NCBI RefSeq assembly: GCF_004208525.1
Contig: NZ_SGIT01000002.1
Span: forward strand, 620,001 to 684,000
DNA: 64,000 nt
Source of the DNA: Sphingobacterium corticibacterium
GTDB taxonomy: Bacteria; Bacteroidota; Bacteroidia; Sphingobacteriales; Sphingobacteriaceae
Direction of reading: 5' to 3'
Positions 25,144 through 62,020 of this stretch are shown in pieces. Numbering within the stretch: position 1 is the stretch's first letter; each line of letters opens with the position of its first letter. The translations under genes were made by a program, and so were the position numbers. The notes beneath the pieces were generated by a model. It had not been told where the DNA came from and made no database searches. It was given only the letters and a program-made list of their open reading frames with translations.

Positions 25144-25335
25144 AATTTAAGTTAAGAAACCTAAATCAGGATTTGGGGTGACAAGAAATCTGCTTTTCTT
25201 TTTTTTCCATAAAAAAATAAACAAAATCTCGCCACTTTAAAATTTTGAATGAGGGGATATTGCATACATAGTATTCCTACATATTTCAAAATTTTATATG
25301 TGGCATTTCATGTTAAGGAGGGAATTGTGCAATTC

Positions 25336-25872
25336 TCACAATGTACTAAGTGCCAGCAAAAACATCCAGAAGTAATTGAAATTCAGTTTTTCGCGCAAGA
25401 CACTAAGCCCTCGGCGCTTTTGTGTTTTTATGGTATTAATACTGATCTCTAATTCTTGGGCGATTTCTTCATTAGAGTAGCCATCCACATAACTCATGAC
25501 CATAATCTTTCTGCACCCTTCGGGAAGTTTTTCCAAAGCGTCATAAATTGCTGTCATAAACTCTGCCCGAATAATCTGATGTTCGTAATCGATGTCGTCC
25601 GATTCTGTAAACACCGTACGTTCCCAGAATTTTCGCACGACTTTGTTATGACGGCTCAGATTGAATACAGCATGTTTGATCGAACTATACAGAAAAGATT
25701 TTATCGCATTTTCATCATCTGGCAGTTCCGTTTTGTTGTTTAAGTAAGAAACGAACGCGTCCTGCGCCAAATCTTCCGCAGTTTTCTCATCCTGCACCAT
25801 TTGCCAGGCAAAATAGCATAATGCACGGTAATGCTTTTTGAAAATGAGCCTATCTTGATCTGTAGCTTTCAT
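25336..25872 (-). CDS. ECF RNA polymerase sigma factor (locus B)
   Basis: This 178-residue ECF sigma factor has a region 2 helix set (about 10-75; CYFAWQMVQDEKTAEDLAQD, AIKSFLYSSIKHAVFN) and a region 4 helix-turn-helix (about 110-160; LPEGCRKIMVMSYVDGYSNE, then EEIAQELEISINTIKT). I take the ATG at 25872 as the start; the frame also opens with an upstream TTG at 25878, which is less likely. It should direct RNA polymerase to the locus B SusC/D promoter when released by the FecR protein encoded next. A single-gene transcript or an operon with fecR are both possible across the 192-bp gap. Confidence 0.93.
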   Translation of the reverse strand: MKATDQDRLIFKKHYRALCYFAWQMVQDEKTAEDLAQDAFVSYLNNKTELPDDENAIKSFLYSSIKHAVFNLSRHNKVVRKFWERTVFTESDDIDYEHQIIRAEFMTAIYDALEKLPEGCRKIMVMSYVDGYSNEEIAQELEISINTIKTQKRRGLSVLREKLNFNYFWMFLLALSTL

Positions 25873-25919
25873 GGACAAGTCGCTTACAATTTAAAAAAGT
25901 CAGTAAGTTAGTTGCAATT

Positions 25920-38494: not shown

Positions 38495-38510
38495 AACATC
38501 TTCTTCTAGG

Positions 38511-44265: not shown

Positions 44266-44310
44266 CAAATATATTACGAAGTCTTTGGAGCGGCAACCTG
44301 TGGCATCCTG
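44266..44310 (-). promoter_or_regulatory. Locus C operator-promoter 1 (before fasciclin/SusC operon)
   Basis: On the minus strand two tandem 10-bp half-sites, CAGGATGCCA and CAGGTTGCCG (44310-44291), overlap the -33 TTG (44296-44294). Exactly 20 bp on is the -7 box TATATTTG (44273-44266), a full match to TAnnTTTG. Three further copies with the same geometry occur in this locus. The layout suggests an activator contacting RNA polymerase at the -33 region. Confidence 0.8.
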
Positions 44311-44319
44311 CGCCCGATA

Positions 44320-44406
44320 TTAATAAACCCATACAGATGTTGTCTGTGCATAAGCACTTAGACCCGCAAACCAACATACGATTCCTAATACAACCTGCAT
44401 TTTCAT
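44320..44406 (-). pseudogene. Orphan signal-peptide reading frame, relic of a secreted protein gene
   Basis: A 28-codon frame on the minus strand reads MKMQVVLGIVCWFAGLSAYA-QTTSVWVY and stops. It is a textbook Sec signal peptide with an AYA-Q cleavage site and only eight residues after it. It lies between the stop of a GH2 gene (44476) and operator-promoter 1; its stop is 10 bp from the operator. The simplest reading is that a deletion removed the body of an exported enzyme or binding protein and joined its 5' end to the promoter region of the next operon. A short secreted peptide is possible but less likely. Confidence 0.65.
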
Positions 44407-44475
44407 CACTAACATCTTTTAATTATAACTCACTTCATCCTATTTTTTATTATCTCTCAGCGCTTTAATTACACT

Positions 44476-47349
44476 TTATTTTAAACTTATACCAAATTCA
44501 CCAATAAACGGTTCGCCCGTATCAGTCAAAAGCAGGGGGAAAGAATCATCCGGTTTACGTCCTTTTTCAGGTTTACTAAGCACTTCCGACAGTATGTTTA
44601 TTACATCCGGACTAGCAGCATTGTGCCCCATATAACCAACGTGCGAAATATGCACACCGCCTACACTACCCGAACGTTCTATCCAACGAGTAGCCTTTTT
44701 CCCAATAACATCAGCACTACCAGTTTCACCACCCCATACACCAAGAATCGGTGCAGAACGCTTATTCGGATAAGCGTTCCAAGGACCTAATCCGAGCCAG
44801 CGGATGTTATTCATTTCCGGCATTGTTTTCAACGACATTCCCACTATAGGAAGACTCGGGGCAAACACTTTCGGCAAAATTTCATAACGAACATTCAATC
44901 TTCCGTCCGTCGATATCGTGTATTGATAATCGGTGGTAAAGCTTGTCGTATCGTTCACTATATATTCAACTTTTGCGTCTATAGTGACCTTGTCGGCTTC
45001 CTCGCTGATATTCCAAGATTTCACCGACGGTGTGTTACGATTCATGTCCGGTATATAGCGTATCAATTTGTTACCGATAACACTTGCGGCACCGTGATCG
45101 GGCTTCTCCCATAAGGTGGGAGTCAATTCTGTAATCAACAAATTATGATGTAGCGCAGCAGACACAAGATGACCTGTCATCGGGTTGAATACATAACGTA
45201 CGTTACCCACGTCTACGGTTGTCATTTCGTCTTTCGTCAACACGATATGTTCTTTCCCATCAAGCAGATTATCGGGAATATTCAACGGACAGAGCTCCAC
45301 AGCTTTACGTGTGATTTCCTGTCCGTCAGCTCCCGTGAAAATAAACCATGCATAATACGTCTTACCCTGGGTAACACGTTTGATTTCTTTAATCGGTAGA
45401 TCGAATACCCCTTCAGCATGAGGTTTTCCGTTGATTGTACTGGTACCGCTCGCTAACGTTTTATCGTCCTCACGGAGCGACCAGTCAATCTTAATATTAT
45501 TCAAATCAGTGAAGTCAAAATCATTCTGAATCGGAATGCGCACAGTAGATTGACCGGGAGTGAATTCCATTTTATCCACGACAGGATAAACCTGCGCATA
45601 GACGGCTTTTACTTCCCAAAAATCTCGGGTTTTGTTTCGGTACGAATCCACAATTCCATCCCATCCGGCAGCATCAATCCGCATATATTTATCATCACGA
45701 ACAATATTGTCATATTTTTTGTCAGGTCTGATGGTAGGTGTTTTTATCCCTTGATCTGCCCACATCCATATTGCACCGCCTGCTCCAGCGGGATGCCTCG
45801 TCAGCGCTTTCCATCTCGCTTCCAATCCTCCGAAACCTTCTGTTCCATAAGCGTGGGTATACTCCGTAGTAATGATAGGACGATTGGCTTGAGCAGCAAA
45901 CGTATCATATTCATGAGGTTGCCAGTAGTGTGCAGAAAGAATATCAATCTCCTCGGGAAGCCAAGATTCGTGCCTCCAAGGAATCAAAACGGGTCTCGTG
46001 GAATCGAGCGCTTTAAGAACTTTTATTGATGTGAGGTGAAAACTTGTCAACGGATCCTCATTGCCTACAGACCAATAAACGATTGATGGACTATTTATAT
46101 CGCGTGTAATCGTTTCATAGGTACGTACGAGGGCTGCATCCATGTAAGATGGGCCCTCACGTAGATGACCGGCGCCTCCTAAGGATACTTCGCTTCCCAC
46201 GTACATCCCCAATTCATCACATAACTCTATAAAACCTTTCGCATGCGTATAATGGGCCGTCCGCACGTAATTGATATTGGCTTCTTTCATCTTCATAATA
46301 TCTTCGAGCCAATGTTCATGCCTCGTAGCGCGTCCAACATCGGGATGTTCGTCATGGCGATTCACCCCCCGAAGTTTAACTGTCTGTCCGTTAATGCGAA
46401 ACACGCCGCCTTCTGTGGATATCTCTCTGAATCCGATCTTTTCCACACGCGAATGTATCGCCTGATCATTTTCCAAAAGTTCCGCTTTCAATGTGTAGAG
46501 ATAGGGGGTTTCCGCTGTCCAGTGCTTAGGAGATTCTACGCGGAAAGTCAGACTGATGTCTCGTCCTGTGGACGTGTGTGCCGGAACCTCTATAGTCCGC
46601 GCGGCGACTGAATTCCCCTCTTTATCAGAAAGTGTCAAACGGAGATGATAGGGTTCGCCAGGTGTTGGATAATTACCTGGAATCGTTTGTTTATTTCTAT
46701 CGTTTACCATGACACGAACTTTCAAATCCGCATCATCATAATTTTTATCAAAAACGGTTTGTGTCGTCACTTGATCGAGCCAGCGGTTGCTAGGCATTGC
46801 TTCCAGCGTTACGTCACGATAGATACCGGCAAGTGTCCAGTCATCGAACGTGTCGAATTTATATTCTCGACTTACTTGTCGCACGCGAACGGCCAATACA
46901 TTGGTACCTTTTTTTTTCAGCGCTCGACTGACGTCAAAAGCAAAAGATGTGTAGCCGCTATTGTGCTGTCCAAGATGCGTCCCGTTCAACCAGACCTCGG
47001 CTGAGGACCATACGCCTCCAAAGTGGAGCAGTACGCGTTTTTTATTCCAATCCGCTGGTATTTCAAATTCGCGAAGATAAAAACCTTCCGAACCTTTATC
47101 GTCGGGGTATCCTCGATACACGGGCTCTTCAAAGCCGAGAATTTCCCAGTTAGAAGGTACTGGAACCGATTGAAGCTTATTGCTTTTAAATCCCGGAACA
47201 TAAAATTCCGAGAGACCTTCTGCCTCCTTATCGGTTTGGGCTAGGGCAAATCGCCATGTTCCGTTTAGGTTAATATTATTCTGCGCATAAACACAAAAGG
47301 TTGAATTTGCTATTAGCAATAGCAACAAAAGAAAAATACGTGTAGACAT
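44476..47349 (-). CDS. GH2 beta-galactosidase-like enzyme (1 of 3)
   Basis: This 957-residue exported enzyme of the LacZ-like GH2 type has a signal peptide (about 1-22), a sugar-binding domain (about 25-190; NLNGTWRFAL, PVPSNWEILGFEEPVYRG), Ig-like domains, a TIM barrel (about 310-600) and a C-terminal domain like the beta-galactosidase small chain (LGLGPWNAYPNKRSAPILG). Acid/base Glu is in YWSVGNEDPL (about 429) and nucleophile Glu in ITTEYTHAYG (about 495). GH2 enzymes here would remove terminal beta-galactose from pectic galactan side chains. It follows the second GH2 gene by 90 bp. The precise sugar specificity is not fixed by sequence alone. Confidence 0.9.
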   Translation of the reverse strand: MSTRIFLLLLLLIANSTFCVYAQNNINLNGTWRFALAQTDKEAEGLSEFYVPGFKSNKLQSVPVPSNWEILGFEEPVYRGYPDDKGSEGFYLREFEIPADWNKKRVLLHFGGVWSSAEVWLNGTHLGQHNSGYTSFAFDVSRALKKKGTNVLAVRVRQVSREYKFDTFDDWTLAGIYRDVTLEAMPSNRWLDQVTTQTVFDKNYDDADLKVRVMVNDRNKQTIPGNYPTPGEPYHLRLTLSDKEGNSVAARTIEVPAHTSTGRDISLTFRVESPKHWTAETPYLYTLKAELLENDQAIHSRVEKIGFREISTEGGVFRINGQTVKLRGVNRHDEHPDVGRATRHEHWLEDIMKMKEANINYVRTAHYTHAKGFIELCDELGMYVGSEVSLGGAGHLREGPSYMDAALVRTYETITRDINSPSIVYWSVGNEDPLTSFHLTSIKVLKALDSTRPVLIPWRHESWLPEEIDILSAHYWQPHEYDTFAAQANRPIITTEYTHAYGTEGFGGLEARWKALTRHPAGAGGAIWMWADQGIKTPTIRPDKKYDNIVRDDKYMRIDAAGWDGIVDSYRNKTRDFWEVKAVYAQVYPVVDKMEFTPGQSTVRIPIQNDFDFTDLNNIKIDWSLREDDKTLASGTSTINGKPHAEGVFDLPIKEIKRVTQGKTYYAWFIFTGADGQEITRKAVELCPLNIPDNLLDGKEHIVLTKDEMTTVDVGNVRYVFNPMTGHLVSAALHHNLLITELTPTLWEKPDHGAASVIGNKLIRYIPDMNRNTPSVKSWNISEEADKVTIDAKVEYIVNDTTSFTTDYQYTISTDGRLNVRYEILPKVFAPSLPIVGMSLKTMPEMNNIRWLGLGPWNAYPNKRSAPILGVWGGETGSADVIGKKATRWIERSGSVGGVHISHVGYMGHNAASPDVINILSEVLSKPEKGRKPDDSFPLLLTDTGEPFIGEFGISLK

Positions 47350-47439
47350 AAAATACTATAGGTTTATTTTTTATAATTTGATTCTATGATACCGAAATCC
47401 TAATCGGCATCATAGATGGCCTTAAATTCCATATGAACC

Positions 47440-50439
47440 CTATTGGTCGTAACTATGATAAAAAGGTTGAAATGCTTTCGTTATTTTTTTATTATCTCCA
47501 AAAAGATCATTTAAAACCGAAGGCCATGTTGTCGTGGAAAATGGAACAATGGTAAACATTCCCTTTATACCATCACTTTCTTTAAATGAATATAAATCTT
47601 GAGGCCATTCGTATTTATTAAACACACTGGATACATGCGCGTTATGGCTAACAACAATTCCTTTTTCAGTTCGCTCCACAGCTATATTGGCTTTATTGGC
47701 AATCAACGCAAAGCCATTTCCATGTACGTCTGTAAACACGGCACATTCGACATCCTGGCGGTTGCCCGCAAAATAAAGATCGTTACTATTCAAATGATAA
47801 ACGCCAAATTCACTTAACCTATCCTTACCCGGATACGCCGCATAAGGTCCTTTTCCTATCCATTTAAATTCTGTAAACGAAGAGGGAATTACAAATGACA
47901 AACCCGTTTCCACCGCTTCTTCCTGACCCTTTGGCAATAAATTGTAATGAACATTAATGTATCCTCTATCAGAAAAATCATAGGTAATTTCTCCAGAAAT
48001 CGCCCTATTTTCCATAGAATCCGGTTGATAAGTATAATTAACACGTAACTGTTCAGCATCGTGTCGTATCACCTTCACTTTCGGATCTGTCAATAAAAAT
48101 GGATTCCATAATGTGTGTCGGATTTTAGATCTTCGAGATGTTGTTGTAGCATCCTGAGCCATGGATGGCTTACGCCCCACGCGTGCAAACATGCCGTCTG
48201 CGATCAGCAAAACTCCATTTCCATTCTTTAGTTGTGTTATTCCAGATTGTTCTTCAAATTCGAATTGGTAATCGTTTGATTCAACGGCATTCGCTTTAAG
48301 GATGGGCTTTGCATTTGGTGATCCAATCTTGTCGATCAAATCGACTGTACTTTTTTGTTGATACAGTGGATATGTTTTTTCATAAACTTGAAAATGTTCT
48401 TTATCTTCTACAGTTAATCTTAAATAATAAAATAATGCCGCAGGAGTTTCTGGTAAAGTTGTATTAATCGACGCTGTAATCGTTTCATGTGGGTTTCCTT
48501 TTAGAGGCACAATTCCTGAATTGATAATGGTTGTATCCGCGTAGAGTTCCCATTTAAATTTCACAGCTGCTAAATCTGTAAAATCATAACGGTTTTGTAT
48601 TTTTATTTCAAAATTTTGGTTCCCACCTCTAAAGTATAATGTATCATCTAGTGCCTTTACGGGCGTATAAATTTTCCGCATCTGAAAAAAATCGGTCTGC
48701 GGTGTTCTATCTGCATAAACAATTCCGTCTGTTCCCTGATTTCCTCCAGTATCATATATCGTATTTTCATCTGTCCATACATAGATAGTAGACTCCCCTT
48801 TCGATATTTTATTTTGGGATTTTCTCAAAATTCCTTGATCAAAAAGCTTCCAAACAGCTCCTCCCGCCAATTTAGGTTCTATATACATCACTTCATAAAT
48901 TTCCTCCGCCATTCCGAAATCCAGCCCCAGTGCGTGTGCATATTCGCTAGCGATCAGTGGTTGTTCAATTGTTTTTGCAAATTCTTTTATTTCAGATGGC
49001 TGCGGATAATGAAAATCAAGCATATCAATTGAATCAGGCAAGGCTTCCATCATATTTTTAAATACTGTTGGTGTTTGGGGGAAACAATACGGTCTCGTAT
49101 CATCTAGCGATTTCACATATCTGCCGGTAATCAATCCAATTTCCGTCACGGGATTCTCATTACCAACACTCCAGATAATAACTGATGGTCTATTTTTATC
49201 TCGCCAAATAGTCGCTTTTGCTCTTGTCTTCAAGATCGGCAGATAACTCGTGTCGGTCAGCAATTCATCTCCGTATCCATAAGGTATCTCATTCATCACA
49301 TAAAAACCCAGTGAATCGCATAATTCCAATAACCTAGGTTGTGGCGGATAATGTGCCGTGCGAATAAAATTAATGTTTCCTTTACGCATCAATTCTAAAT
49401 CTTTTTTCATCTCCGACTCTGTTATCGCACGCCCGTTACTAGGCGTAAGATTATGATGATTGATTCCTTTTAATTTAATCGGGCTGCCATTCAATTTAAG
49501 AACACCGTTTGTCCAAGTTACTTCTCTTATGCCAATTCGTTCCGTATATTTCTGTAGAACGGCGTCATTATCCTTTAATAACAAACGGAGTGTGTAGAGA
49601 TAGGGTGTTTCAGCAGTCCACAGTTTTGGATTTTCTACTTTTAATACACCGTTAACATATACGATATTAGATTTATTTTTTAACCCCTCGGGGGTTAAGA
49701 TAAATTTTTCAATGACCGTTCCCGAAGCATCTAGTAATTCTCCTTGGATATTTAATTTTTTTGAAAATTTCACGTTTGAGATTTTCTCAATCTTAGCCGA
49801 TATATCGATATTACTACTAGCCGGATTGACGCGCGTCTTAATAACTAAATCCTCTATATGCACAGGAGAAAGGGTAAATAACGTCACATCCCTATAAATT
49901 CCAGAAAGAGACCAATCGTCGTTCGTATCAAACTCCCAACCCTTAGGCTGTGTGATTACCTTCACCGCCAATGTATTTTCACCTCCTATATTCACATAAG
50001 GCGATATATCAAATGTCTGTAGATTAAAGGCACTCGCAAACTCACCTACATACTTTCCATTAACCCAAACCGTGTATCCGGTTTGGACACCACCGAACGC
50101 AATATAAATAGAATTGCCTTTCCAGTGCGTCGGGACATCAAATTGAGTTCGATAAAGACCTGTACCATTCTTGAGTTTTTTACCATATGTTGGTTCAGCA
50201 AAACCTTGTAGCTCCCAGTTGCTTGGAACATTAATTTTTGACCATGAATCGACATCATAATCCGGCTTGTAGAATAGCGAATCATCCGCTATGTCAGCGG
50301 AGGGAATATATTTGAAATACCACTTTCCATTCAAAGACTGCTTCGCGTCTTCTTCTGAAGGTATAAGTGTCTGCGCAAATAAACCACGAGAAAATGATGA
50401 ACAAATAAAAATAATGAGTAACGAAATTTTCAATTTCAT
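47440..50439 (-). CDS. GH2 beta-galactosidase-like enzyme (2 of 3)
   Basis: This 999-residue exported GH2 enzyme is a paralogue of its downstream neighbour. It has a signal peptide (about 1-22, ending LFAQ), a sugar-binding domain (SLNGKWYFKYIPS, NVPSNWELQGFAEPTYG), Ig-like domains, a TIM barrel and a C-terminal beta-galactosidase small-chain-like domain (FKWIGKGPYAAYPGKDRLS). Acid/base Glu is in IIWSVGNENPVTE (about 427) and nucleophile Glu in IASEYAHALG (about 498). Its DNA is more AT-rich than the right half of the locus. No copy of the tandem operator is seen in the 227-bp gap upstream, so its promoter is different or distant. Confidence 0.9.
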   Translation of the reverse strand: MKLKISLLIIFICSSFSRGLFAQTLIPSEEDAKQSLNGKWYFKYIPSADIADDSLFYKPDYDVDSWSKINVPSNWELQGFAEPTYGKKLKNGTGLYRTQFDVPTHWKGNSIYIAFGGVQTGYTVWVNGKYVGEFASAFNLQTFDISPYVNIGGENTLAVKVITQPKGWEFDTNDDWSLSGIYRDVTLFTLSPVHIEDLVIKTRVNPASSNIDISAKIEKISNVKFSKKLNIQGELLDASGTVIEKFILTPEGLKNKSNIVYVNGVLKVENPKLWTAETPYLYTLRLLLKDNDAVLQKYTERIGIREVTWTNGVLKLNGSPIKLKGINHHNLTPSNGRAITESEMKKDLELMRKGNINFIRTAHYPPQPRLLELCDSLGFYVMNEIPYGYGDELLTDTSYLPILKTRAKATIWRDKNRPSVIIWSVGNENPVTEIGLITGRYVKSLDDTRPYCFPQTPTVFKNMMEALPDSIDMLDFHYPQPSEIKEFAKTIEQPLIASEYAHALGLDFGMAEEIYEVMYIEPKLAGGAVWKLFDQGILRKSQNKISKGESTIYVWTDENTIYDTGGNQGTDGIVYADRTPQTDFFQMRKIYTPVKALDDTLYFRGGNQNFEIKIQNRYDFTDLAAVKFKWELYADTTIINSGIVPLKGNPHETITASINTTLPETPAALFYYLRLTVEDKEHFQVYEKTYPLYQQKSTVDLIDKIGSPNAKPILKANAVESNDYQFEFEEQSGITQLKNGNGVLLIADGMFARVGRKPSMAQDATTTSRRSKIRHTLWNPFLLTDPKVKVIRHDAEQLRVNYTYQPDSMENRAISGEITYDFSDRGYINVHYNLLPKGQEEAVETGLSFVIPSSFTEFKWIGKGPYAAYPGKDRLSEFGVYHLNSNDLYFAGNRQDVECAVFTDVHGNGFALIANKANIAVERTEKGIVVSHNAHVSSVFNKYEWPQDLYSFKESDGIKGMFTIVPFSTTTWPSVLNDLFGDNKKITKAFQPFYHSYDQ

Positions 50440-50666
50440 ATCTGAATAACTTAACTAGGTAATATAATATGTTTTCTGTCTTCTAAGATAGTTTGGTCAT
50501 ATGGAATCGAACGAATCCAAGAGTGTCCAAAGTATATCCAATCTCATGGACAACACAAAACCCTTAAATACAACACATTAAATAAAACAGAATAGTTATT
50601 AGGTTTATATTTGGCAGGAAAAAATGTGAAAAAACTGTAGATAAAAAGAACTTCTTGATTCCTCCG

Positions 50667-51893: not shown

Positions 51894-51966
51894 CAATGGA
51901 ACATTTATTTGTAAATTTAACAAATAATTGCTGCGCGCAGACTTGATATTCTCGAAACTATAGATG

Positions 51967-54729
51967 CTAATCTTCTAACTCATGCCCCACATCCCCATCG
52001 ATCGCATCGCCGGCAAACGCCAGACATTGCATCGCTGCCAAGCTCCATTGGGCAACCGCATTTGTAGACACCGGTGCCTCCTCCCGTTGGCTGAGTACTT
52101 CCGGAGGCCTAACAAGAACTACTGGTGGTATACCTAGTTTCATTCCCGCAGCACCGGCATAAAATTCCTTCCAAGCACGTTCCTTCAGTGCACGGTCTTT
52201 CAAAAACCAACCAGCATAGGCGGTAAGTTTGCTATGCCCCTGCCCTAGGTTGGGTGTTTTAAAGGTTTGATGAAGATGCTTTTTTTGCCAGGTTGCATCC
52301 GCATTATACCCCGCACAATATTGCAACCATGCTTTCGTAAATACTGGCACATCCAGCGAACCAATCAGTTCCGTACAGATTTCCGCCAAGCCAAACGCCG
52401 CACTGAGATGGGACACCCGAATATGCTGGTGCTTCACGCGTTCAAACATGCCGTTGTTCAAATCCATATTCGCCGAACTCGTAAAAAAACCATGAGGTTG
52501 GTTGCCAATGCTACGCATACTATTCAGCAAACGCTGTTTCACCTTTTCGTCACCCGTACGCTCCCATTCGGTAAACCAAGCGGATGCCAAAGCACCCCAA
52601 TCTGTACCGAACGACATACTCACCTTGCTATCATCTTTGGCGGCTATTTGACCTACCTTGCGACCGGGCACAATTTGCTTGAGCGTATGTGCTGCTTCGA
52701 TCTGTTCACGCATGAGGTCACCGATACGCTCATCAGCCGTGAGATAGTAAAGAAAACGTCGATTAATAACGGTGCTAATGCGCAGTTGCTTGGCACTGCA
52801 TCCCCAATGCATAACATTATGTCGTGAACCCAAGGGAGAAAAACGTCCGATATGATGCACATCAACTTCGCCAGTGTGCCGTGTCATCGCCTCCGCCATG
52901 CGGAACACATCATGCCTACCTGAGCGCAGAAAATAATACCATAACCAAAGGTCCGTGGATAATTCAGAATTGTCCCATGCGTATCCACCTACATCATACC
53001 GCCATACGTGACGATCCTGATCATAATTATGCATCACATCACCATAGTTCCAAAACCCATACCATCGGTGTTGCTCAATTTGCTTTTTGTAATAATCGAT
53101 ATAAAATGCCAGCTGCGCTTCGATAGCTTTTTCGGCATTACTTTTAGGCGGACCAACAGTATATGCCCCACCAAACACGCCACTTTGCTGATAGTGGATG
53201 GGAGCGCACACCAGCAACGGCGGATCTTGGATATGTTTGGCCATGAGCGCGAGTTCTTCATGGGTTGGTGTACGGTCTACGATACAGATTTCAAGCTCGC
53301 TGGTTCGGGCTATTCCATAGGGTGTACCAAATCCGGGTTCGTAGTCCTCGTAAGTGATATCTAACCCCTCCAACTGCTTTTCGTAGGTATCTTGTCCCAT
53401 GCCATCGTGGTAGAACCGGATATCCATGGCGGGAGCATCCGGTGCCCACATCCAGAGCGTGAGTTTAGCCGCATCGGTATGCGCGTGCCGAATGTCTATC
53501 TGTGCCGGAAAGCTTTGCCAAAAATTTCGAATACCAAATACAATCCCCCCATTAGCCCCACCGACATACCCACATCCAGCGGCACGTCGGCCGTGAGCGC
53601 AGGCCAACCATCCATGACCGGATGACGTTCGTTTACGGATTTCAAAACCATCTGGTGTAGATTGCGTGAGTGAATAGTCGCCAAAAGCAGGTATATAAGG
53701 TAAACCATTTGCCACACGGGAGTTGAATGTCGAAACCGGAGGAGCAGCCTTACCGGCAACCTGTGCATCACGAATTTCCTTTCCCGGATCGCGCCGTAAG
53801 CCCGTCAACCCCTTTACCGCCTCGCCAAACACCCCTCCATCCTCGGAACAGAATCGAATATGTCTGTCGTACAGGGCGTCTGTCATCGGCACCGTGAACT
53901 GCATCCCCAATCCATGGATGAAATCCTTGTATTCGTCTGCATCATACACTAACGTATGGACCATACGAATGGCAGCTGTATGGAGGTAACAATAAAATCG
54001 CACCGTAAACGGTAGCAGCTCACGCCCTGTATCCGAGTGGTGTATACCTGTTGTTTTGATGACCACGCGAACAGGCCCTTGATGCTCCACAACCGTCTCG
54101 TGGATTTCGCTCCGAAGTTCTTCGCTTAGCAGCGGTTCACCCATAGTCTGTTCCGGTAAGTTTTGCCACTGGAGTACCAATTGACCATCGGTAACGGTGG
54201 TTTGTTTACCTTGATGAATGGATCTGATTAAGATATTCCCCTTTTTGGAGAATACACATTGCATAGACCGCGTATCTACCTGAATTATATCGTCATCCTC
54301 CCTAACAGCAATTGCTTCATCTCCCGTATGGGATGAAGATCCTCCCTTACGCAAAACCAAGGCAGCTTTGCCATTTTCCTGATCCAATACAGCGGCGTGT
54401 GCCGACCATTTTACCGATCCGTCAGGCCACCGGGCCGTGACCCAATGTTGACTAGGTAGCGTGCCACCACCGGGGGCAACCAGTGTGAGCGCATTCGTTT
54501 CTTTCAGTTCTCCCTTACTCCACGGAACACCCCACGTCACACCTCGTGTTCTCTTGGGCGCATGTTCTCCCAACCAGTGTAAGTTTTTATCCTGTTGATA
54601 TTGCCTATCCCCGGCGAATGCATGAAATGGGACTGAACCACTGAGAGGCAAGGTGGATGCCAATATGGCCGACTGCTTTAGAAAATGCCTTCTCGACTGC
54701 TGATAATGGTTTCTTTTTTGTGGGCTCAT
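51967..54729 (-). CDS. PL26-like exo-rhamnogalacturonan lyase with Tat signal
   Basis: This 920-residue protein has a Tat-type signal (SRRHFLKQSAILASTLPLSG, about 12-31) and resembles the PcRGLX/PL26 exo-rhamnogalacturonan lyase family. It has an N-terminal RIFT-barrel-like domain (GVTWGVPWSKGELKETNALT, WPDGSVKWSAHAAVL), a beta-sandwich middle and a C-terminal alpha/alpha-toroid (about 520-900; RWYGFWNYGDVMHNYD, YAWDNSELSTDLWLWYYFL, RHNVMHWGCSAKQ). Such enzymes release unsaturated galacturonosyl-rhamnose from chain ends of rhamnogalacturonan-I. Its ATG is only 34 bp from the divergent DUF6250 ATG. The Tat signal implies folding before export, unlike the Sec-type neighbours. Confidence 0.85.
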   Translation of the reverse strand: MSPQKRNHYQQSRRHFLKQSAILASTLPLSGSVPFHAFAGDRQYQQDKNLHWLGEHAPKRTRGVTWGVPWSKGELKETNALTLVAPGGGTLPSQHWVTARWPDGSVKWSAHAAVLDQENGKAALVLRKGGSSSHTGDEAIAVREDDDIIQVDTRSMQCVFSKKGNILIRSIHQGKQTTVTDGQLVLQWQNLPEQTMGEPLLSEELRSEIHETVVEHQGPVRVVIKTTGIHHSDTGRELLPFTVRFYCYLHTAAIRMVHTLVYDADEYKDFIHGLGMQFTVPMTDALYDRHIRFCSEDGGVFGEAVKGLTGLRRDPGKEIRDAQVAGKAAPPVSTFNSRVANGLPYIPAFGDYSLTQSTPDGFEIRKRTSSGHGWLACAHGRRAAGCGYVGGANGGIVFGIRNFWQSFPAQIDIRHAHTDAAKLTLWMWAPDAPAMDIRFYHDGMGQDTYEKQLEGLDITYEDYEPGFGTPYGIARTSELEICIVDRTPTHEELALMAKHIQDPPLLVCAPIHYQQSGVFGGAYTVGPPKSNAEKAIEAQLAFYIDYYKKQIEQHRWYGFWNYGDVMHNYDQDRHVWRYDVGGYAWDNSELSTDLWLWYYFLRSGRHDVFRMAEAMTRHTGEVDVHHIGRFSPLGSRHNVMHWGCSAKQLRISTVINRRFLYYLTADERIGDLMREQIEAAHTLKQIVPGRKVGQIAAKDDSKVSMSFGTDWGALASAWFTEWERTGDEKVKQRLLNSMRSIGNQPHGFFTSSANMDLNNGMFERVKHQHIRVSHLSAAFGLAEICTELIGSLDVPVFTKAWLQYCAGYNADATWQKKHLHQTFKTPNLGQGHSKLTAYAGWFLKDRALKERAWKEFYAGAAGMKLGIPPVVLVRPPEVLSQREEAPVSTNAVAQWSLAAMQCLAFAGDAIDGDVGHELED

Positions 54730-54763
54730 TACTGTTTTGGTATTTGTTTGTTATTTTTGTTCT

Positions 54764-55459
54764 ATGAAATTTGTCTATACGATTCTCTTTCCTATTTGGG
54801 TAACCGTTATCCTCACAGCATGCCAAAGTCGTTCGACTAGCTCTGCTGAAACTGAGCTACTCTTCGAGGAGACCTTCGAAAATGGATTAGATAGTTCTCG
54901 GTGGGTAGTCGAGATTGAACCCAAACCAGACTCACGTGTTTACGTGGCTGACGGCAAACTTTGGCTGGATACTTATGGTGGAGTGACGGTATGGCTAAAC
55001 TATCGGTTAGATGGGAATGTCGCCATTGAATACGATCGCACCGTGGTGATAGACACCGGTGCGAACGATCGGCTTTCAGACCTAAATCAGTTTTGGATGG
55101 CCACGGATCCAAAAAATGACAATTTGTTTTCCCGATCAGGTGTGTTTGAAAGCTATGATTCATTATCGTTATATTATGTGGGCATGGGCGGTAACACCAA
55201 TACGACCACCCGTTTCCGAAAATATGAAGGCGATGGAACCAAACCCCTAATCTACGAACACGATAGCAGACTGGAATCCAACCGTACCTACCGTATCCGC
55301 ACGGAAGTAATTAACGGCATCACCACTTTTTCGGTGGATGGTCAAGAGCTATTCCGTCATAGTGATCCGGATCCGTTAACATCAGGTTATTTCGGGTTTC
55401 GTTCTACGTATTCCCGCCAAGCGATTGACAACCTGCGCATCTATCAGCTCCATGATTAG
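54764..55459 (+). CDS. DUF6250 lipoprotein
   Basis: This 231-residue lipoprotein has the lipobox VILTAC near residue 19 and a concanavalin-like beta-sandwich (LLFEETFENGLDSSRWVVEI, WLDTYGGVTVWLNYRLDG, RTYRIRTEVINGITTFSVDG) matching the DUF6250 family, often annotated beside rhamnogalacturonan enzymes. I choose the ATG at 54764 because the signal peptide starts there; the frame also opens with TTG at 54737. It is the only plus-strand gene of locus C and stands 34 bp from the divergent PL26-like start, with a minus-strand promoter aimed at its 3' end. It may be a glycan-binding protein or a rhamnogalacturonan-active enzyme; the catalytic role is not shown by the sequence. Confidence 0.82.
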   Translation: MKFVYTILFPIWVTVILTACQSRSTSSAETELLFEETFENGLDSSRWVVEIEPKPDSRVYVADGKLWLDTYGGVTVWLNYRLDGNVAIEYDRTVVIDTGANDRLSDLNQFWMATDPKNDNLFSRSGVFESYDSLSLYYVGMGGNTNTTTRFRKYEGDGTKPLIYEHDSRLESNRTYRIRTEVINGITTFSVDGQELFRHSDPDPLTSGYFGFRSTYSRQAIDNLRIYQLHD

Positions 55460-55508
55460 CCCTCGGCATAATTCGCCGTAAAATTGCCATTATAAGTTTA
55501 TTCTCTTA

Positions 55509-55553
55509 CGAAGTTATCTTTTTGTCAAAACGGCAGCAACCTGTGGCGTCCTG
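55509..55553 (-). promoter_or_regulatory. Locus C operator-promoter 2 (reads antisense through DUF6250)
   Basis: The minus-strand half-sites CAGGACGCCA and CAGGTTGCTG (55553-55534) carry TTG at 55539-55537. The -7 box TAACTTCG (55516-55509), one mismatch from TAnnTTTG, is again 20 bp away. Transcription would begin near 55503 and run leftward. The first minus-strand gene it meets is the PL26-like lyase at 54729, after about 770 nt that are antisense to the DUF6250 gene. Confidence 0.7.
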
Positions 55554-55569
55554 CTTGGTAAAGTTCTTT

Positions 55570-56892
55570 TTAATTCCCATCCGGCTTCACATCACTGTTC
55601 TTAATACTCAGCGGCCATTCCCATAGCTGAGGTCTATCGGGTTTTATAGGATCGTAGTTTTTAAAGTCAATCATATGTTTGCGAATGTTTAAATGGTTGT
55701 CGATGATGCCTTGAAGCACCATCTTCGCAATTTGATAAGCGCCATACGTATTGAAGTGTGTATTGTCTTGCAGCGGTGCTGGTTGATCGGGAAATGTATT
55801 GGCAGCATAATGAACCAGTGCTTGCTTGGAGCCTTCCACCCCTAAGGTTTCATAGAATGTACGTGTCATTTTATTCAGATCGATCAAAGGGACCCTTAAT
55901 TCCTGCGCAACCTTTCGGGCAGCATCGGGATAATCGCCTAATGTATATTGCAATGTACCGTTTGTATCAAAAGCGCGTCTAGCGGTAGAGGTTAAAATAA
56001 CAGGCGTTCCGCCGACAGCACGAAATTCCTTAACAAACTGACGCATCCTTTCCGTATAGCCTTTATATGCACCTGCTTGCTCTCCTCTTTCTTTCTGATC
56101 GTTATGCCCGAATTCGATAAAAAGATAATCGCCGGGTTTGGCAACAGACAGAATTTTATCCAGCCGTTTGGAGGATAAAAATGAGCTTAATGCCAAACCG
56201 GATTCCGCATGGTTGGCTACGGCAATGTGTGCATCAAAAAATCGCGGAATCATCTGCCCCCACGATGCCCAAGGTTCGTGTTCTTGGTTCACGACAGTAG
56301 AGTTACCAGCTAGAAAAATGGTCGGCACATCATTTACCTGCTCCACGCGTATGTAGCTGATGTTGTTTGTATGCTGAAATTCTAAGGTAAGCTTATCATC
56401 CCAGTCTAATTTCTCCAATTCCCGTGGCTTTTTCAGGCTTACATATTCCCCCTCACGAATCCGTGCATCTTTTCTGTTGACGATAAAGCTTTTTTCTACG
56501 GTCTTATGCTGCCTAATCTCGACCTTCTCCAACTGTAAACGTCTCGATTCGGAGCGTACGGTACTCTTGAACGTGCTATCACGCAGACCTTGGTATCCAA
56601 CGGTTACTTTATAGTTACCTTCGGGCACATCGACAGAGAAATAGAAGGGCTGTTTGCTAAACAAGGTATGGCTATCTTTCGATATGCTGACATGTTTTTC
56701 GGTACCATATTCAAATCCATACTGTCCGTTTTCCTCGTAAGGTTCAGCAGTTTGTATTACAGTGGAGCGATCGCTATATGCCTTGCCAAAACTGAATTCA
56801 CTAAATTCATTGCTTATTTTTTGTGTAAATCCTTTACTACTGATAAACAGCAAACCTATATAGATGACAATGACGAAAATATTTTTTTGCAT
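55570..56892 (-). CDS. CE12-like rhamnogalacturonan acetylesterase (SGNH hydrolase)
   Basis: This 440-residue exported esterase has a signal peptide (MQKNIFVIVIYIGLLFISS), an N-terminal beta-sandwich (about 25-185; FSFGKAYSDRSTVIQTAEPY, FYFSVDVPEGNYKVTVGYQG) and an SGNH hydrolase domain (about 190-400). Catalytic Ser is in LAGNSTV (about 197), the GHND block lies near 262 and the Asp-His pair in DNTHFN (about 376-380). It should remove acetyl groups from galacturonate in rhamnogalacturonan before lyase attack. I take the ATG at 56892; the ATG at 56928 lies upstream of the predicted transcription start and gives no better signal peptide. It is controlled by operator-promoter 3, about 34 nt upstream. 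Confidence 0.88.
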   Translation of the reverse strand: MQKNIFVIVIYIGLLFISSKGFTQKISNEFSEFSFGKAYSDRSTVIQTAEPYEENGQYGFEYGTEKHVSISKDSHTLFSKQPFYFSVDVPEGNYKVTVGYQGLRDSTFKSTVRSESRRLQLEKVEIRQHKTVEKSFIVNRKDARIREGEYVSLKKPRELEKLDWDDKLTLEFQHTNNISYIRVEQVNDVPTIFLAGNSTVVNQEHEPWASWGQMIPRFFDAHIAVANHAESGLALSSFLSSKRLDKILSVAKPGDYLFIEFGHNDQKERGEQAGAYKGYTERMRQFVKEFRAVGGTPVILTSTARRAFDTNGTLQYTLGDYPDAARKVAQELRVPLIDLNKMTRTFYETLGVEGSKQALVHYAANTFPDQPAPLQDNTHFNTYGAYQIAKMVLQGIIDNHLNIRKHMIDFKNYDPIKPDRPQLWEWPLSIKNSDVKPDGN

Positions 56893-56931
56893 CTGATTCG
56901 ATTTTGTTATTTGATTTATCGTTGGCATCCC

Positions 56932-56976
56932 CTAAGGTCGTATTTTGTCGCGTCGACGGCAACCTGTGGTCTCCTG
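56932..56976 (-). promoter_or_regulatory. Locus C operator-promoter 3 (before the acetylesterase gene)
   Basis: The minus-strand half-sites CAGGAGACCA and CAGGTTGCCG (56976-56957) contain TTG at 56962-56960. At 20 bp lies GACCTTAG (56939-56932), a weaker -7 box with two mismatches to TAnnTTTG. The predicted start near 56926 leaves a leader of about 34 nt to the ATG at 56892. Confidence 0.7.
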
Positions 56977-56987
56977 TTTCAAGTGGC

Positions 56988-57941
56988 TTATTGCAATCCC
57001 TCCAAGATAGCCTCTGAGACAGCAAACGTAGTACCATGCCGTATTCCTTTGGGAAAAGAAACAGCATCAGAAACATCTTCCCAGTTTTTCATATCCTGGG
57101 AGCGCACCGCTCCGTATTTACGATCGGTATATTTATCAAAATATACATATACATAATCGTCTACGATCAAGGGAGCCGGACCTTCGGCCCAATAATCGCC
57201 TGTAATCGGAGCTGAAACGTTCGTCGGAAAGTCAAAAGGTTTATCATGAGATGTTACCCGGATATTTTTCTCCGGTGGTGCCGAGTTTTCGTTTTTCACA
57301 AAGAGATAATAGGTATTGTCTTTCTGGAGTATAGCACCGTCTATAACGCTAAATCCGGGCTCAAAAAACAACTTGGTTTCACTGAACGTCTTGAAATCTT
57401 TCGTTGTTACATAATATTGGCGATGGTTCAGTCCTTTTTCACTTTCGGATGTCGGTAATTCGGGAAACGCACCCGGAATAGTGGATGCCCAAAAAATATA
57501 AAACGTTTTGTCTTTACCATCATAAAACAACTCGGGTGCCCATGCGTTCCTAGCGCCTTCATATTTTTCCATTACCGGAATGTTGTGTTGTTCTGACCAG
57601 TTCTTCAGGTCCTTAGACGATGCATAGCCAATACCCTGATCCCACCAACCGGTGGTCCAGACCATGTGGAACGTTCCTGCATCATCCTGTACGATGCTCG
57701 GGTCCCGCATCAGTTTATCTTTTCCGATTTGCGGCTCTAAGATAACAGCATCCTTACATAATGCTTCCCATTGCAATCCATCACGGCTATAGGCCAGATG
57801 CAACCCATCGCCATTGCCTTTAAAATACGACATCAGATAGACATTTCTGTTGTCTCTTTCTGGATTTTCCTTACTGGTGTTTGGCGTACAAGAACAAAGA
57901 TACCCTATCATAAGGCACATCAATCCAAATATTGGTTTCAT
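56988..57941 (-). CDS. GH43-like five-bladed propeller glycosidase lipoprotein (1)
   Basis: This 317-residue lipoprotein (LCSC near residue 18) has the five-bladed propeller fold of the GH43 clan. Blade motifs include NVYLMSYFKGNGDGLHLAYS, the acidic RDPSIVQDDAGTFHMVWTTG, NAWAPELFYDGKDKTFYIFW and DYWAEGPAPLIVDDYVYVYF. The Asp in RDPSIV and the Glu in AEGPA are good candidates for the base and acid. In a pectin locus it would remove arabinofuranosyl or galactosyl side chains. It starts 10 bp after its paralogue and ends the GH2-GH43-GH43 operon; the next gene has its own operator-promoter. The subfamily is not determined. Confidence 0.85.
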   Translation of the reverse strand: MKPIFGLMCLMIGYLCSCTPNTSKENPERDNRNVYLMSYFKGNGDGLHLAYSRDGLQWEALCKDAVILEPQIGKDKLMRDPSIVQDDAGTFHMVWTTGWWDQGIGYASSKDLKNWSEQHNIPVMEKYEGARNAWAPELFYDGKDKTFYIFWASTIPGAFPELPTSESEKGLNHRQYYVTTKDFKTFSETKLFFEPGFSVIDGAILQKDNTYYLFVKNENSAPPEKNIRVTSHDKPFDFPTNVSAPITGDYWAEGPAPLIVDDYVYVYFDKYTDRKYGAVRSQDMKNWEDVSDAVSFPKGIRHGTTFAVSEAILEGLQ

Positions 57942-57951
57942 TATTTCTTTT

Positions 57952-59037
57952 TTATTTTTTTAACTGTATGTATACGGGCTTATCTCGATCACAGTGGATT
58001 ACCCCATCTTGAAACTCCAGTTCTGCCACCTGTATCGAACTGCGTCGAACATTGTACGCATCGTTGGCCGCACCGGCTCCACCATCATTTCCTGCCGTTC
58101 TACCGGGATGCGTAAAATAAAAGATATAGGCTTTATCATCTTGCACAACGACATCGGCATGCAATCCTTTCGTACCGTCGTCAACCCCTTTACCCGGTTC
58201 CCGCAGGATATTATCTGGTTGCCGTTGCCATTCGTTCAAATCAACAGAAGAGTAGACACCTAGCCCATCCCAGTGATCGATGATCATAAAGTAGCGGTCA
58301 TGCCAATAAAATACTTTCGGGCCTTCACCCGCTTGACCATTAAAGGCTTTACCTAAATCCTCCCATTGGTATAGATCCTTGCTTCGGGCGGAGTAGATGG
58401 ATTTCCCATCCCGCTCGTTATTGTAATACATATACCACCAATCGTCCTCTCCTTTGAAAACACCCGCATCAATAACACGATCCGAAGCCAGTTTCAAAAC
58501 GGACTCTTCTTTCCAATCGATCAAGTTATCGCTCGTCAAGTGGACAATATCCCGCGGATGACGCCAATCGGAGAACGTACCGGGAACGACGGTCAAATAC
58601 ATGTGATAACGTCCATTGTCTTCAATCACATCGGGCGCCCAATAGGTATAATCTTCTTTGCCATAGGTGATATTCGCATTGGCACGGTACTGCCAACTCG
58701 CACCGCCATCTGTGGATTCAGCAATTCCAATAGGCGTGCCGTGCACCCAATCCACTTCGTTGGCAACCTCTATATTGGCCCTCCGGTTCGTATAAAACAT
58801 AAACCATCGGTTTTCTTCTTTATTCCAGATAACAACCGGATCGGCAGCCCCATCGTAAATGGTATCGCGATAAAGTGGTTTATTCGCCAATTTTGCCGTA
58901 TCTGTGCTTTCATTATTGGACATACAGCCAAACAAGGCCAAAGATGCCAGCAGACAAACAGCCCATTTTTTTATAGTGTTCAATTTACTCGTTTTTTTGT
59001 TTATAATCCTTAAAGATAAGTTATTCTTCAACAGCAT
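57952..59037 (-). CDS. GH43-like propeller glycosidase lipoprotein (2)
   Basis: This 361-residue lipoprotein has the lipobox LALFGC near residue 38 after a rather long basic N-region. The propeller motifs fit the GH43/GH32 clan: DGAADPVVIWNKEENRWFMF (candidate base Asp), YTYWAPDVIEDNGRYHMYLT, DAGVFKGEDDWWYMYYN and GEGPKVFYWHDRYFMIID (candidate acid Glu). It differs from its downstream paralogue enough to suggest another linkage or sugar. It starts 8 bp after the GH2 gene, so it is co-transcribed from operator-promoter 4. Specificity is unknown. Confidence 0.84.
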   Translation of the reverse strand: MLLKNNLSLRIINKKTSKLNTIKKWAVCLLASLALFGCMSNNESTDTAKLANKPLYRDTIYDGAADPVVIWNKEENRWFMFYTNRRANIEVANEVDWVHGTPIGIAESTDGGASWQYRANANITYGKEDYTYWAPDVIEDNGRYHMYLTVVPGTFSDWRHPRDIVHLTSDNLIDWKEESVLKLASDRVIDAGVFKGEDDWWYMYYNNERDGKSIYSARSKDLYQWEDLGKAFNGQAGEGPKVFYWHDRYFMIIDHWDGLGVYSSVDLNEWQRQPDNILREPGKGVDDGTKGLHADVVVQDDKAYIFYFTHPGRTAGNDGGAGAANDAYNVRRSSIQVAELEFQDGVIHCDRDKPVYIQLKK

Positions 59038-59045
59038 GTATCATT

Positions 59046-61943
59046 CTATTTTTTATTCCGGTTAGAATTTGGCATTAATTCATCCGGGCTGTCTACCGTA
59101 TAAATTTTATACTGTTGCTTCGAGGGGCTAACCATAATGTCCTCGACGACCGCCATATCTACCTCTTCCGTCGGATCAAACTTATCCGAACCCATGTATG
59201 TGATTAAACTTTTAAACAATTGCTTTGATGCCGGCCTGTCTATATCGGCGTGTAAATCTGCACTGCTCATGACCAGTTTTCCGTTGCCAACCTTCGCTTC
59301 GAAAACCAAGCCGAGCCTTCTGTTAATGAACCAGGTATCGATAGGTTGTACCAGCGGACGGAAGCCTACCGGAAAATCTTCAAGAATCATGACCTGTGCC
59401 CGGTTTTGAATATCCCACCATTGCAGATCAGAATGATAGCTCGTGGGGAATTGCGAAAAGGCATCGCTTTCACTGTCGATTAGCATTCCCGTGACATGTG
59501 GTGGACGCATCTTAAACCACGATGTGTTCCAAAACACCGGCAGGAAATGCATCTCCACCTCTTTACCCTTTACAACTTGACCCGATACGTTGAGGAACAC
59601 TTTACCACCGTTGTTCAAGATTTCTTTGGCTTGATCGTCCAAGACGGTGGTGTAATGGATGTCCGTTTCCATTTCTACCACCTTTTCGGGGTAAACCCAA
59701 AAGTCCCAATCATTGAGAAAATCGGTACCTGCCACCGACACTTCCAACCTCAACTGTGATGGTGCTGTAACCGTGTGTAAGGGATAGGAAATATGACCCA
59801 CCGGTATCCCATTTCCGTTGGAGATCATACCGACATCCAGATTACCGGACGCTAGGGATTTTCCTTCAGTATCCTTTATTGCCCAATTCAGTACGGCATT
59901 TTCTATAGGCGCAACGCCGGAATGGAAGAGGTCTATCTGTACATCGAGACGCTCGTTATTTGTAAAGACAAATTTTGGAAAGCGTGCCAAAGGCACCGTG
60001 CTATTGCAGAAACGGGCGAACGCTGCCGGCTCGATGTAGCCTTTCTCCTCCCAAAAGGCATCCAGCACCCCGACCAAGGCCGACCCTTGCCCAGGAAAAT
60101 CCTGCAGGCCGAGCAGCTGAAAACCTGCATAACCAGGTGTTCGGAGGATCTTCTCCATATCATGTTTATAACAGAGTACCTGTAATTTTCCGGAAGCCAT
60201 CAGAAATTCATGGGCTTGTTTACCCATTCCTTGATCCGTCAAATCCTGACGAAAAAGCTCCAAGTTTTTGGCACGATAGGCCCCCGTATATTTCTGTATT
60301 TCGTCAAAATTAGGGAAAACACAATACTGACCGTTTTCATGTGCAACAAAAGGCGCATCAAACTTGGATATCGCCTCCCTGAAATCCGATACGGTCTCCG
60401 GTCGCTTATCCCAGGAAAGCCCCCTTACCCCACCCCTGACCTGAAATTCGGCATGTGGCACTACCGGCCAGCTACCGCCTACGCTCATCCCTGTATAAAC
60501 CCGTCGGCTGTCTTTACTTTTCCAGTAATCCACAAACTCATTCAGGTACCTTACCTGATCGCCTGCCGGTTCATTTCCGGCCGATAACATCACAAACGAG
60601 GCATAGTTCCCATATTTTTCGACCATCCGATCGGTTTCGTCATACAGATACTGATCGATAGGCTCACCCACACCGATCTTAACGCCGTGGTTCGGCCAAC
60701 TTGGCCCTTCGGGCTGCAGGTACATGCCCACGATATCAGCAGCTATAAATGCCGCCTCGGGTGGGCACCAGGAGTGGAAACGTATGTGGTTCAATCCATG
60801 GGATTTCGCGGTTTCAAAAATGTCTTTCCAAGCTTCGACGGTCGTAGCCGGATAGCCTGTGAGCGGAAATTCGCCATTATGCAGCGTCCCCCTTAAGAAC
60901 ACGGGTCGCCCGTTGATCAGAAACCTATTCCCTTCTATTGTAAATTCGCGCATACCGAACTGCAATTCCTTTATGCTTTTCTCCTTGCCGGTTTTAAGTG
61001 TAGCGGTAAGTGTATACAGTGCTGGATTAAATTCATCCCAAACCTGCATTTTATTGCTGAAAGGTAAATCGACAGACAACGTATCCGTATCTCCGGACCC
61101 TACGGAAAAGTCTGCCGTAACTTGGTCCGTCTTATCTTTTTCAGGACTATTAAAACTATTCGCCGAAAGGACAATCTCACCCGAAGCACGGTCTGCCCCA
61201 CTGTTTTTAAGGACAATCCTCACCTGCGCTTTTCTATTTTTTAAATCTGGAAAAACCTGGATCTCGTCAAAATAGATGGGCGAACCCGCTTCAAGCGACA
61301 ACTTGCCTACCAGCCCGTTCCAATTTCCTTGGGTATGATCGCTCACACTATGCGAATCGGGACCAACATTGATAAGCAAACGGTTATCCACCCGAATGGA
61401 GATCCGATGTTTCCCCGGCGCCATGTTCCTTGGCAGTTCAAATTCGTGTGCTGCCACTAAGCTGTTTGCCATCCCTATTTCTTTGCCGTCAATCCAGACA
61501 CGTGTTTCTATATGTGCTCGCTCCAGATGAAGGACGACCCTTCTACCCTTCCAGTTCTCCGGAATAGTTATTTCCTTTTGGTACCATGCGGCACCGACAT
61601 AGTGCTTCGCAGGCGTTAGCCAAAAAGGGATATGGATGTTGCCCGGCTGGCGATATTTTTCCAGTTTGGGATTAAAATAAAAAGAACTGTCATAAATGCT
61701 ACCTGTCCACTGTGTTTCCAGTGTGATGTCGTCGCCGATATTTTGCTCGATCAGTGATCCGGGTAACTTTACATCGCCGGCAAGGGTTTGACTGAACCAT
61801 TGGTCTTTTATACCCCGATCTGTTTTATCGAGCGCAAAACGCCAAATACCAGAGAGATCCAGAAAATGTTGCTGCGCCTGTAAAGCGGAAACAGTAAGCA
61901 GAAAAAGGGCGATAAAAAACAAGTATCTATACATGGCAGCCAT
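59046..61943 (-). CDS. GH2-type glycosidase of divergent subgroup (3 of 3)
   Basis: This 965-residue exported enzyme has a signal peptide (MYRYLFFIALFLLTVSALQA). It shows the GH2 order: sugar-binding domain (HFLDLSGIWRFALD, AAWYQKEITIPENWKGRRVV), Ig-like domain, and TIM barrel with acid/base Glu in MLSAGNEPAGD (about 457) and nucleophile Glu in VAHENGQYC (about 536). A long C-terminal part (about 700-965) is unlike the LacZ small chain of the other two GH2 proteins. The start at 61943 (or 61934) is chosen because operator-promoter 4 lies inside the longer frame that begins at 62006. First gene of the GH2-GH43-GH43 operon. The substrate sugar is not resolved. Confidence 0.86.
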   Translation of the reverse strand: MAAMYRYLFFIALFLLTVSALQAQQHFLDLSGIWRFALDKTDRGIKDQWFSQTLAGDVKLPGSLIEQNIGDDITLETQWTGSIYDSSFYFNPKLEKYRQPGNIHIPFWLTPAKHYVGAAWYQKEITIPENWKGRRVVLHLERAHIETRVWIDGKEIGMANSLVAAHEFELPRNMAPGKHRISIRVDNRLLINVGPDSHSVSDHTQGNWNGLVGKLSLEAGSPIYFDEIQVFPDLKNRKAQVRIVLKNSGADRASGEIVLSANSFNSPEKDKTDQVTADFSVGSGDTDTLSVDLPFSNKMQVWDEFNPALYTLTATLKTGKEKSIKELQFGMREFTIEGNRFLINGRPVFLRGTLHNGEFPLTGYPATTVEAWKDIFETAKSHGLNHIRFHSWCPPEAAFIAADIVGMYLQPEGPSWPNHGVKIGVGEPIDQYLYDETDRMVEKYGNYASFVMLSAGNEPAGDQVRYLNEFVDYWKSKDSRRVYTGMSVGGSWPVVPHAEFQVRGGVRGLSWDKRPETVSDFREAISKFDAPFVAHENGQYCVFPNFDEIQKYTGAYRAKNLELFRQDLTDQGMGKQAHEFLMASGKLQVLCYKHDMEKILRTPGYAGFQLLGLQDFPGQGSALVGVLDAFWEEKGYIEPAAFARFCNSTVPLARFPKFVFTNNERLDVQIDLFHSGVAPIENAVLNWAIKDTEGKSLASGNLDVGMISNGNGIPVGHISYPLHTVTAPSQLRLEVSVAGTDFLNDWDFWVYPEKVVEMETDIHYTTVLDDQAKEILNNGGKVFLNVSGQVVKGKEVEMHFLPVFWNTSWFKMRPPHVTGMLIDSESDAFSQFPTSYHSDLQWWDIQNRAQVMILEDFPVGFRPLVQPIDTWFINRRLGLVFEAKVGNGKLVMSSADLHADIDRPASKQLFKSLITYMGSDKFDPTEEVDMAVVEDIMVSPSKQQYKIYTVDSPDELMPNSNRNKK

Positions 61944-61975
61944 CGTCTTTATAATCGATTCACATTTGGTATTTC

Positions 61976-62020
61976 CAAAGATATCGAGTTGCTTTGTCAT
62001 GGGCAACCTGTAGCAACCTG
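61976..62020 (-). promoter_or_regulatory. Locus C operator-promoter 4 (before GH2-GH43-GH43)
   Basis: The minus-strand half-sites CAGGTTGCTA and CAGGTTGCCC (62020-62001) contain TTG at 62006-62004. Exactly 20 bp on is TATCTTTG (61983-61976), a full match to TAnnTTTG. The predicted start near 61970 leaves about 27 nt before the ATG at 61943. Here the two half-sites are most alike (8 of 10 bases). Confidence 0.8.

Follow-up and report, generated by a model that had tools for sequence, protein, structure and literature searches.

Control of glycan loci in Bacteroidota is usually ascribed to HTCS, to ECF sigma/anti-sigma factors and to SusR. Repression from palindromic sites is the mode of many GntR proteins, and AraR of Bacillus subtilis, too, is a repressor with palindromic operators. 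Within the GntR family, MocR and a few other members are known to use direct repeats as their sites (PMC4494728, PMC5320631). In Bacteroides, RG-I loci have been assigned to HTCS, namely HTCS_Rgu-1 and HTCS_Rgu-2, with repeats ~20-21 bp apart (PMC3878776). Rhamnose use has been attributed to AraC-, DeoR- or LacI-type regulators, among them the AraC-type RhaR in Bacteroides (PMC3870299), and the word GntR is absent from that paper.

Here we describe an operator in a window of 64,000 nucleotides (C4:620001-684000) from the 5.1-Mb genome of Sphingobacterium corticibacterium, which is assembled in 11 contigs, and trace it beyond the window to a candidate GntR-family regulator; positions prefixed C4 or C6 are contig coordinates, all others are window coordinates. 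As with HTCS_Rgu-1 and HTCS_Rgu-2, the loci concerned are rhamnogalacturonan loci in which direct repeats precede SusC/D and enzyme operons, but unlike these AraC-type regulators with repeats of ~20-21 bp, the candidate is a GntR protein, the period is 10 bp, and HTCS genes are apparent targets. The combination of a GntR DNA-binding domain with head-to-tail repeats resembles TauR and the MocR type, TauR being an activator whose box CTGGACYTAA also has 10 letters (PMC5320631, PMC4494728), whereas the sensor is LacI/AraR-like and not the aminotransferase-like, PLP-binding domain of MocR. With AraR of B. subtilis the candidate shares a GntR-type DNA-binding domain and a LacI/PBP-like sugar domain (fold match 3tb6), but its presumed sites are rigid direct repeats, placed as for an activator, and not palindromic operators. 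A rhamnose regulon is also the field of RhaR, and DeoR-type RhaR sites are likewise direct repeats with 10-11 bp periodicity (PMC3870299), but the protein family differs from the DeoR and AraC types. FucR (BT1272) and ManR (BT2103) of B. thetaiotaomicron, compared by listing alone, are also listed as GntR-family monosaccharide regulators in Bacteroidota, and their sugars differ from those of this system. Searches of open-licence papers, a limited body, yielded no account of the GntR-operator pair.

Operator copies and target genes in the window

The initial annotation had described four tandem pairs of half-sites in the window, and their coordinates and strand were all correct (Table 1). CAGG is indeed invariant in eight of eight half-sites, the distance TTG-N20-box is exact in all four copies, and the mismatches to the box had been counted correctly, with TATATTTG and TATCTTTG perfect, one mismatch in TAACTTCG and two in GACCTTAG. 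The consensus CAGGWTGCCR was drawn too tightly, being exact in three of the eight half-sites, and is better given as CAGGAYRC for the first half and CAGGWTGC for the second. All four copies fall between genes, as had been claimed, according to gene calls based on ORFs; mechanical ORFs that overlap copies 1, 3 and 4 on the opposite strand were regarded as spurious. The mechanically assigned start of the GH2 ORF (TTG at 62006 or ATG at 62000) runs into copy 4 as well, but the gene likely begins at 61943, with an in-frame ATG that lies beyond the -7 box, and the GDSL esterase may start further inside its ORF than called. The proposal of a shared operator with fixed promoter geometry, in an activator-like position before the fasciclin-SusC/D operon, the GDSL esterase and the GH2-GH43 operon, was borne out. 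A different control system is present in the same window, where genes for a FecR-type anti-sigma and an ECF sigma factor lie beside a SusC-like gene (23983-25878).

Table 1. Operator copies, -7 boxes, genes downstream of them and the candidate regulator
Feature	Position	Strand	Remarks
Operator copy 1	44291..44310	-	CAGGATGCCA CAGGTTGCCG; block kept at the orthologous place in a relative (G175)
-7 box of copy 1	44266..44273	-	TATATTTG; 37 bp from the operator's first base
Fasciclin-domain protein, operon head	41793..44021	-	likely target of copy 1; leader ~245 bp
SusC	38511-41783	-	copy 1 operon, downstream of the fasciclin-domain gene
SusD	37001-38584	-	same operon as the fasciclin-domain gene and SusC
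Operator copy 2	55534..55553	-	CAGGACGCCA CAGGTTGCTG; corresponding block in G175, G223 and G090
-7 box of copy 2	55509..55516	-	TAACTTCG; 1 mismatch
PcRGLX-type rhamnogalacturonan lyase	51967..54729	-	regulation by copy 2 doubtful; leader of 780 bp, mostly antisense to DUF6250
DUF6250 gene	54737..55459	+	Pfam PF19763, E 1.5e-62; between copy 2 and the lyase; arranged alike in G175
Operator copy 3	56957..56976	-	CAGGAGACCA CAGGTTGCCG
-7 box of copy 3	56932..56939	-	GACCTTAG; 2 mismatches
GDSL-type esterase	55570..56928	-	target of copy 3; called start 4 bp past the box
Operator copy 4	62001..62020	-	CAGGTTGCTA CAGGTTGCCC; related block in G175
-7 box of copy 4	61976..61983	-	TATCTTTG
GH2-family enzyme	59046..61943	-	target of copy 4; start re-set to an in-frame ATG beyond the box
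Two GH43-family genes	57952-59037, 56988-57941	-	after the GH2 gene, same operon (GH2-GH43)
GntR-family candidate regulator	C4:790091-791155		~106 kb beyond the window; GntR domain and LacI/AraR-like sugar domain

The rhamnogalacturonan lyase, which had been named as a probable target, is a doubtful one for copy 2, because ~780 bp separate it from that site, most of them taken up, here and in one relative, by the DUF6250 gene on the opposite strand, so that a transcript starting at copy 2 would be mainly antisense to DUF6250 before it reached the lyase. A similar site stands directly before genes other than the lyase in G223 and G090. In G162, a DUF6250 homologue is found on the strand of the lyase, directly downstream of it.

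Sites across the genome

The four copies had been taken as those of one locus, but they are part of about 15 sites in their own locus, joined by a variant at the rhamnose operon and at a SusC gene, and the architecture is family-wide. The block RCAGGAYRCNRCAGGWTGC-N19-TAnnTTnG occurs as ten strong and five weaker sites over a rhamnogalacturonan-I (RG-I) locus of ~185 kb; two further weaker matches lie on contig C6 and almost none elsewhere in the genome, giving a total set of about seventeen. Whole-genome scans were pattern searches, and the search for the full block with at most two mismatches returned 11 matches, more than chance would give and all intergenic by the gene calls; ten fell within C4:664-849 kb, the other on C6. 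A weight matrix, run over 400 kb only, gave the ten strong sites, from which it had itself been built, scores well clear of all others and of those from column-permuted matrices; the same scan suggested the five weaker sites, and those before HTCS2 and before a GH28 gene reappear at matching positions in relatives. Each site is followed by a codirectional gene, as called from ORFs, and the sites persist in relatives while the surrounding genes change.

The genes behind the sites comprise SusC/D operons, rhamnogalacturonan lyases (including PL11-type), GH28, GH43, GH88, GH106, GH78 and GH2 enzymes, the GDSL esterase and two HTCS genes, and from this list the regulon appears to be one of RG-I breakdown and not of pectin in general; the pectin regulon of the initial annotation thus narrows in substrate to RG-I and L-rhamnose. 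At C4:790043 (L150), the two half-sites CAGGACGCCG CAGGATGCAA may be preceded by a third, CACGACGTGA, which is also present in G223. Near FecR- and ECF-sigma-like genes, sites were seen in two other genomes (L092 and L093, in G076 and G066), which suggests a cascade into ECF control.

Upstream of C4:802664, before rhaT, the -7 box is preceded at the usual distance by a variant repeat of the CATGACAG type, and such a repeat stands before rhaT in this genome and in the four others first examined (also L081, L128, L131, L137). In the loci anchored on the GntR gene, 19 of 20 CATG-type sites are directly before rhaT and the remaining one is before HTCS2. Matches to rhamnose kinase, isomerase and transporter families were obtained for the genes at C4:796738-802664, those to the kinase and isomerase scoring below curated cut-offs, and the name RhaEW is based on length and neighbourhood. 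Two weak sites of the genome are hybrids, with CAGG first and CATG second. A SusC gene within the RG-I locus also has a CATG-type site in front of it, at C4:752618, with one mismatch.

Geometry of operator and promoter

The half-sites stand head-to-tail; their period of 10 bp is rigid, and so is the distance of 19 bp that separates them from the -7 box. A primary-sigma -7 box (TAnnTTTG or close) is found at one fixed place, the full TAnnTT lying exactly at +37 from the first base in 79 of 117 distinct core matches, with at most four at any other offset. Because part of the 117 matches had been fetched by a pattern that contains the box, the GntR-anchored set, obtained without selection for the box, is the cleaner test, and in those loci the 10-bp period was found in 31 sequences vs 0-1 at other spacings and the 19-bp spacer in 36 vs 0-2 for other lengths.

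The overlap with the -33 element, which had been pointed out for the four copies, holds, but TTG does not appear to be an obligate -33 element, since it is present in 66 of 104 sites and absent from 38, none of these with another -33 element at that spacing; among CATG-type sites, 16 of 17 lack it. In Flavobacterium, the -7 box has been mapped to -12 to -5 in the study that is also the source of the consensus (PMC9723704), and with the box placed likewise the operator would be centred near -40. A site that overlaps -33 at a fixed distance from the -7 box, a distance counted here to the box and not to a mapped start, has the geometry of class II activators. Neither a second upstream repeat as in HTCS sites nor any further upstream element showed conservation, and the search for palindromic GntR sites yielded direct repeats only, the few inverted-repeat matches resembling coding sequence.

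The candidate GntR-family regulator

The candidate combines an N-terminal winged helix (Pfam PF00392, E 3.9e-11) with a C-terminal periplasmic-binding-protein domain (Pfam PF13377) that scores just over or under the cut-off. Its structure model (pLDDT 88) matches LacI/PurR folds best, the AraR effector domain 3tb6 being among the matches, and its closest named matches come from Sphingobacterium micropteri and S. arenae. The stretch around the recognition helix hardly varies among 26 homologues, paralogues included, and neither does the half-site.

GntR homologues occur in or beside the site clusters of the seven other genomes from which site-bearing stretches were fetched. Among 80 loci fetched by similarity to the GntR protein alone, the exact architecture was found 41 times in 32 loci, most of them with one exact site close beside the GntR gene, and the reversed control gave 0. 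A wider exact pattern had matches in 189 of 300 genomes and its reversed control in none; in the family scan, too, the reversed pattern came out near zero. At least three RG-I-type sites were present in 0 of 79 GntR-negative genomes vs 98 of 222 GntR-positive ones, kinship being ignored, and within Sphingobacterium, again ignoring kinship, the wider exact pattern gave a site in 55 of 55 genomes with a close GntR vs 0 of 13 others. In 35 genomes of other genera a close GntR is present with no exact site. Part of this profile could be co-inheritance, because the GntR gene travels with the RG-I and rhamnose genes.

The genome holds at least two GntR paralogues. The second, at C6:204137-205150 (L121), is 62% identical and lies beside an arabinose operon, ~16-19 kb from the two weaker sites at C6:220145 and 223001 (L117); no tandem repeat was seen at the arabinose promoter in the sequence examined there.

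Discussion

In the mechanism that we propose, operator and promoter would form a single block, in which two head-to-tail 10-bp half-sites (CAGGAYRCNR and CAGGWTGC) are followed by a primary-sigma -7 box, the second half-site lying in the -33 region and 19 bp before the box. The block would be bound by a GntR-family protein whose C-terminal sugar-binding domain is LacI/AraR-like; in response to a sugar, probably L-rhamnose, this protein would then act in the manner of class II activators, with its site centred near -40. In this scheme the regulon would couple uptake and breakdown of RG-I, two HTCS genes and, via CATGACAG, rhaT-rhaEW-rhaI-rhaK. While the operator, its rigid geometry, the target genes, the family-wide conservation and the linkage to the GntR gene can be read from the DNA itself, binding by such a protein and sugar-dependent activation of the RG-I and rhamnose genes are what we consider probable.

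It is conceivable that the GntR protein binds this operator but represses, blocking the -33 region until the sugar releases it, since most known GntR and LacI/AraR-type proteins are repressors and the site does overlap the -33 region. A repressor, however, has no need of base-exact spacing to the -7 box, and the 38 of 104 sites without TTG or a substitute, together with the 16 of 17 CATG-type sites without TTG, make the bare promoters look weak. We infer activation rather than repression because of this exact spacing and these 38 sites, and regard repression as unlikely. The operator might also be bound by an HTCS regulator of the locus, through its AraC-type DNA-binding domain, as is thought for the RG-I loci of Bacteroides, where HTCS motifs are direct repeats too (PMC3878776); two HTCS genes are present in the locus, and the presence of HTCS2 correlates with the number of sites within the genus. 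Yet genomes without HTCS2 have up to 9 sites, both HTCS genes carry a site of their own upstream and so look like targets, and the repeats follow each other at 10 bp, not ~21 bp, and lack a conserved partner further upstream. Moreover, AraC-type regulator genes are present at the site loci of this genome, but the stretches with sites that were fetched from the seven other genomes showed neither such a gene nor an AraC-type domain, and we hold binding by an HTCS to be quite improbable. In distribution profiles of HTCS1, HTCS2 and the AraC protein at C4:767567, none of the three fitted as the regulator, HTCS1 and this AraC protein fitting worse than HTCS2; another AraC protein is encoded at C4:785146.

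Linkage is not binding, and the GntR gene, as a stable member of RG-I and rhamnose loci, could be a conserved neighbour of sites that some other regulator binds. Against this, the exact architecture adjoins the GntR gene across Sphingobacteriaceae and Chitinophagaceae, at RG-I and rhamnose promoters, and the profile is perfect within the genus Sphingobacterium, so that we give such a regulator very little likelihood. Although the motif is short and is present four times in the window, an origin by chance or as a repeat element with no regulatory role has practically no probability, in view of the fixed spacing and of sites that are kept in relatives while neighbouring genes change, and it is refuted by the reversed control, with 0 in 300 genomes vs 189 with matches.

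Activation by the GntR protein, which we favour over these alternatives, would represent a further layer of control in two largely environmental families. More tentatively, we propose that a GntR/LacI-type sensor acts as a class II activator that commands rhamnose catabolism and the whole RG-I machinery, HTCS genes included, from one monosaccharide signal across Sphingobacteriaceae and Chitinophagaceae, and that it may stand above the HTCS systems, not beside them. The operator appears sharp enough for regulons to be read directly from genome sequence, and its CAGG and CATG variants would provide a natural series for the way in which GntR proteins read direct repeats. For these bacteria, such a layer would mean that a cytoplasmic monosaccharide sensor keeps the breakdown of the polymer in step with the use of the sugar released from it.
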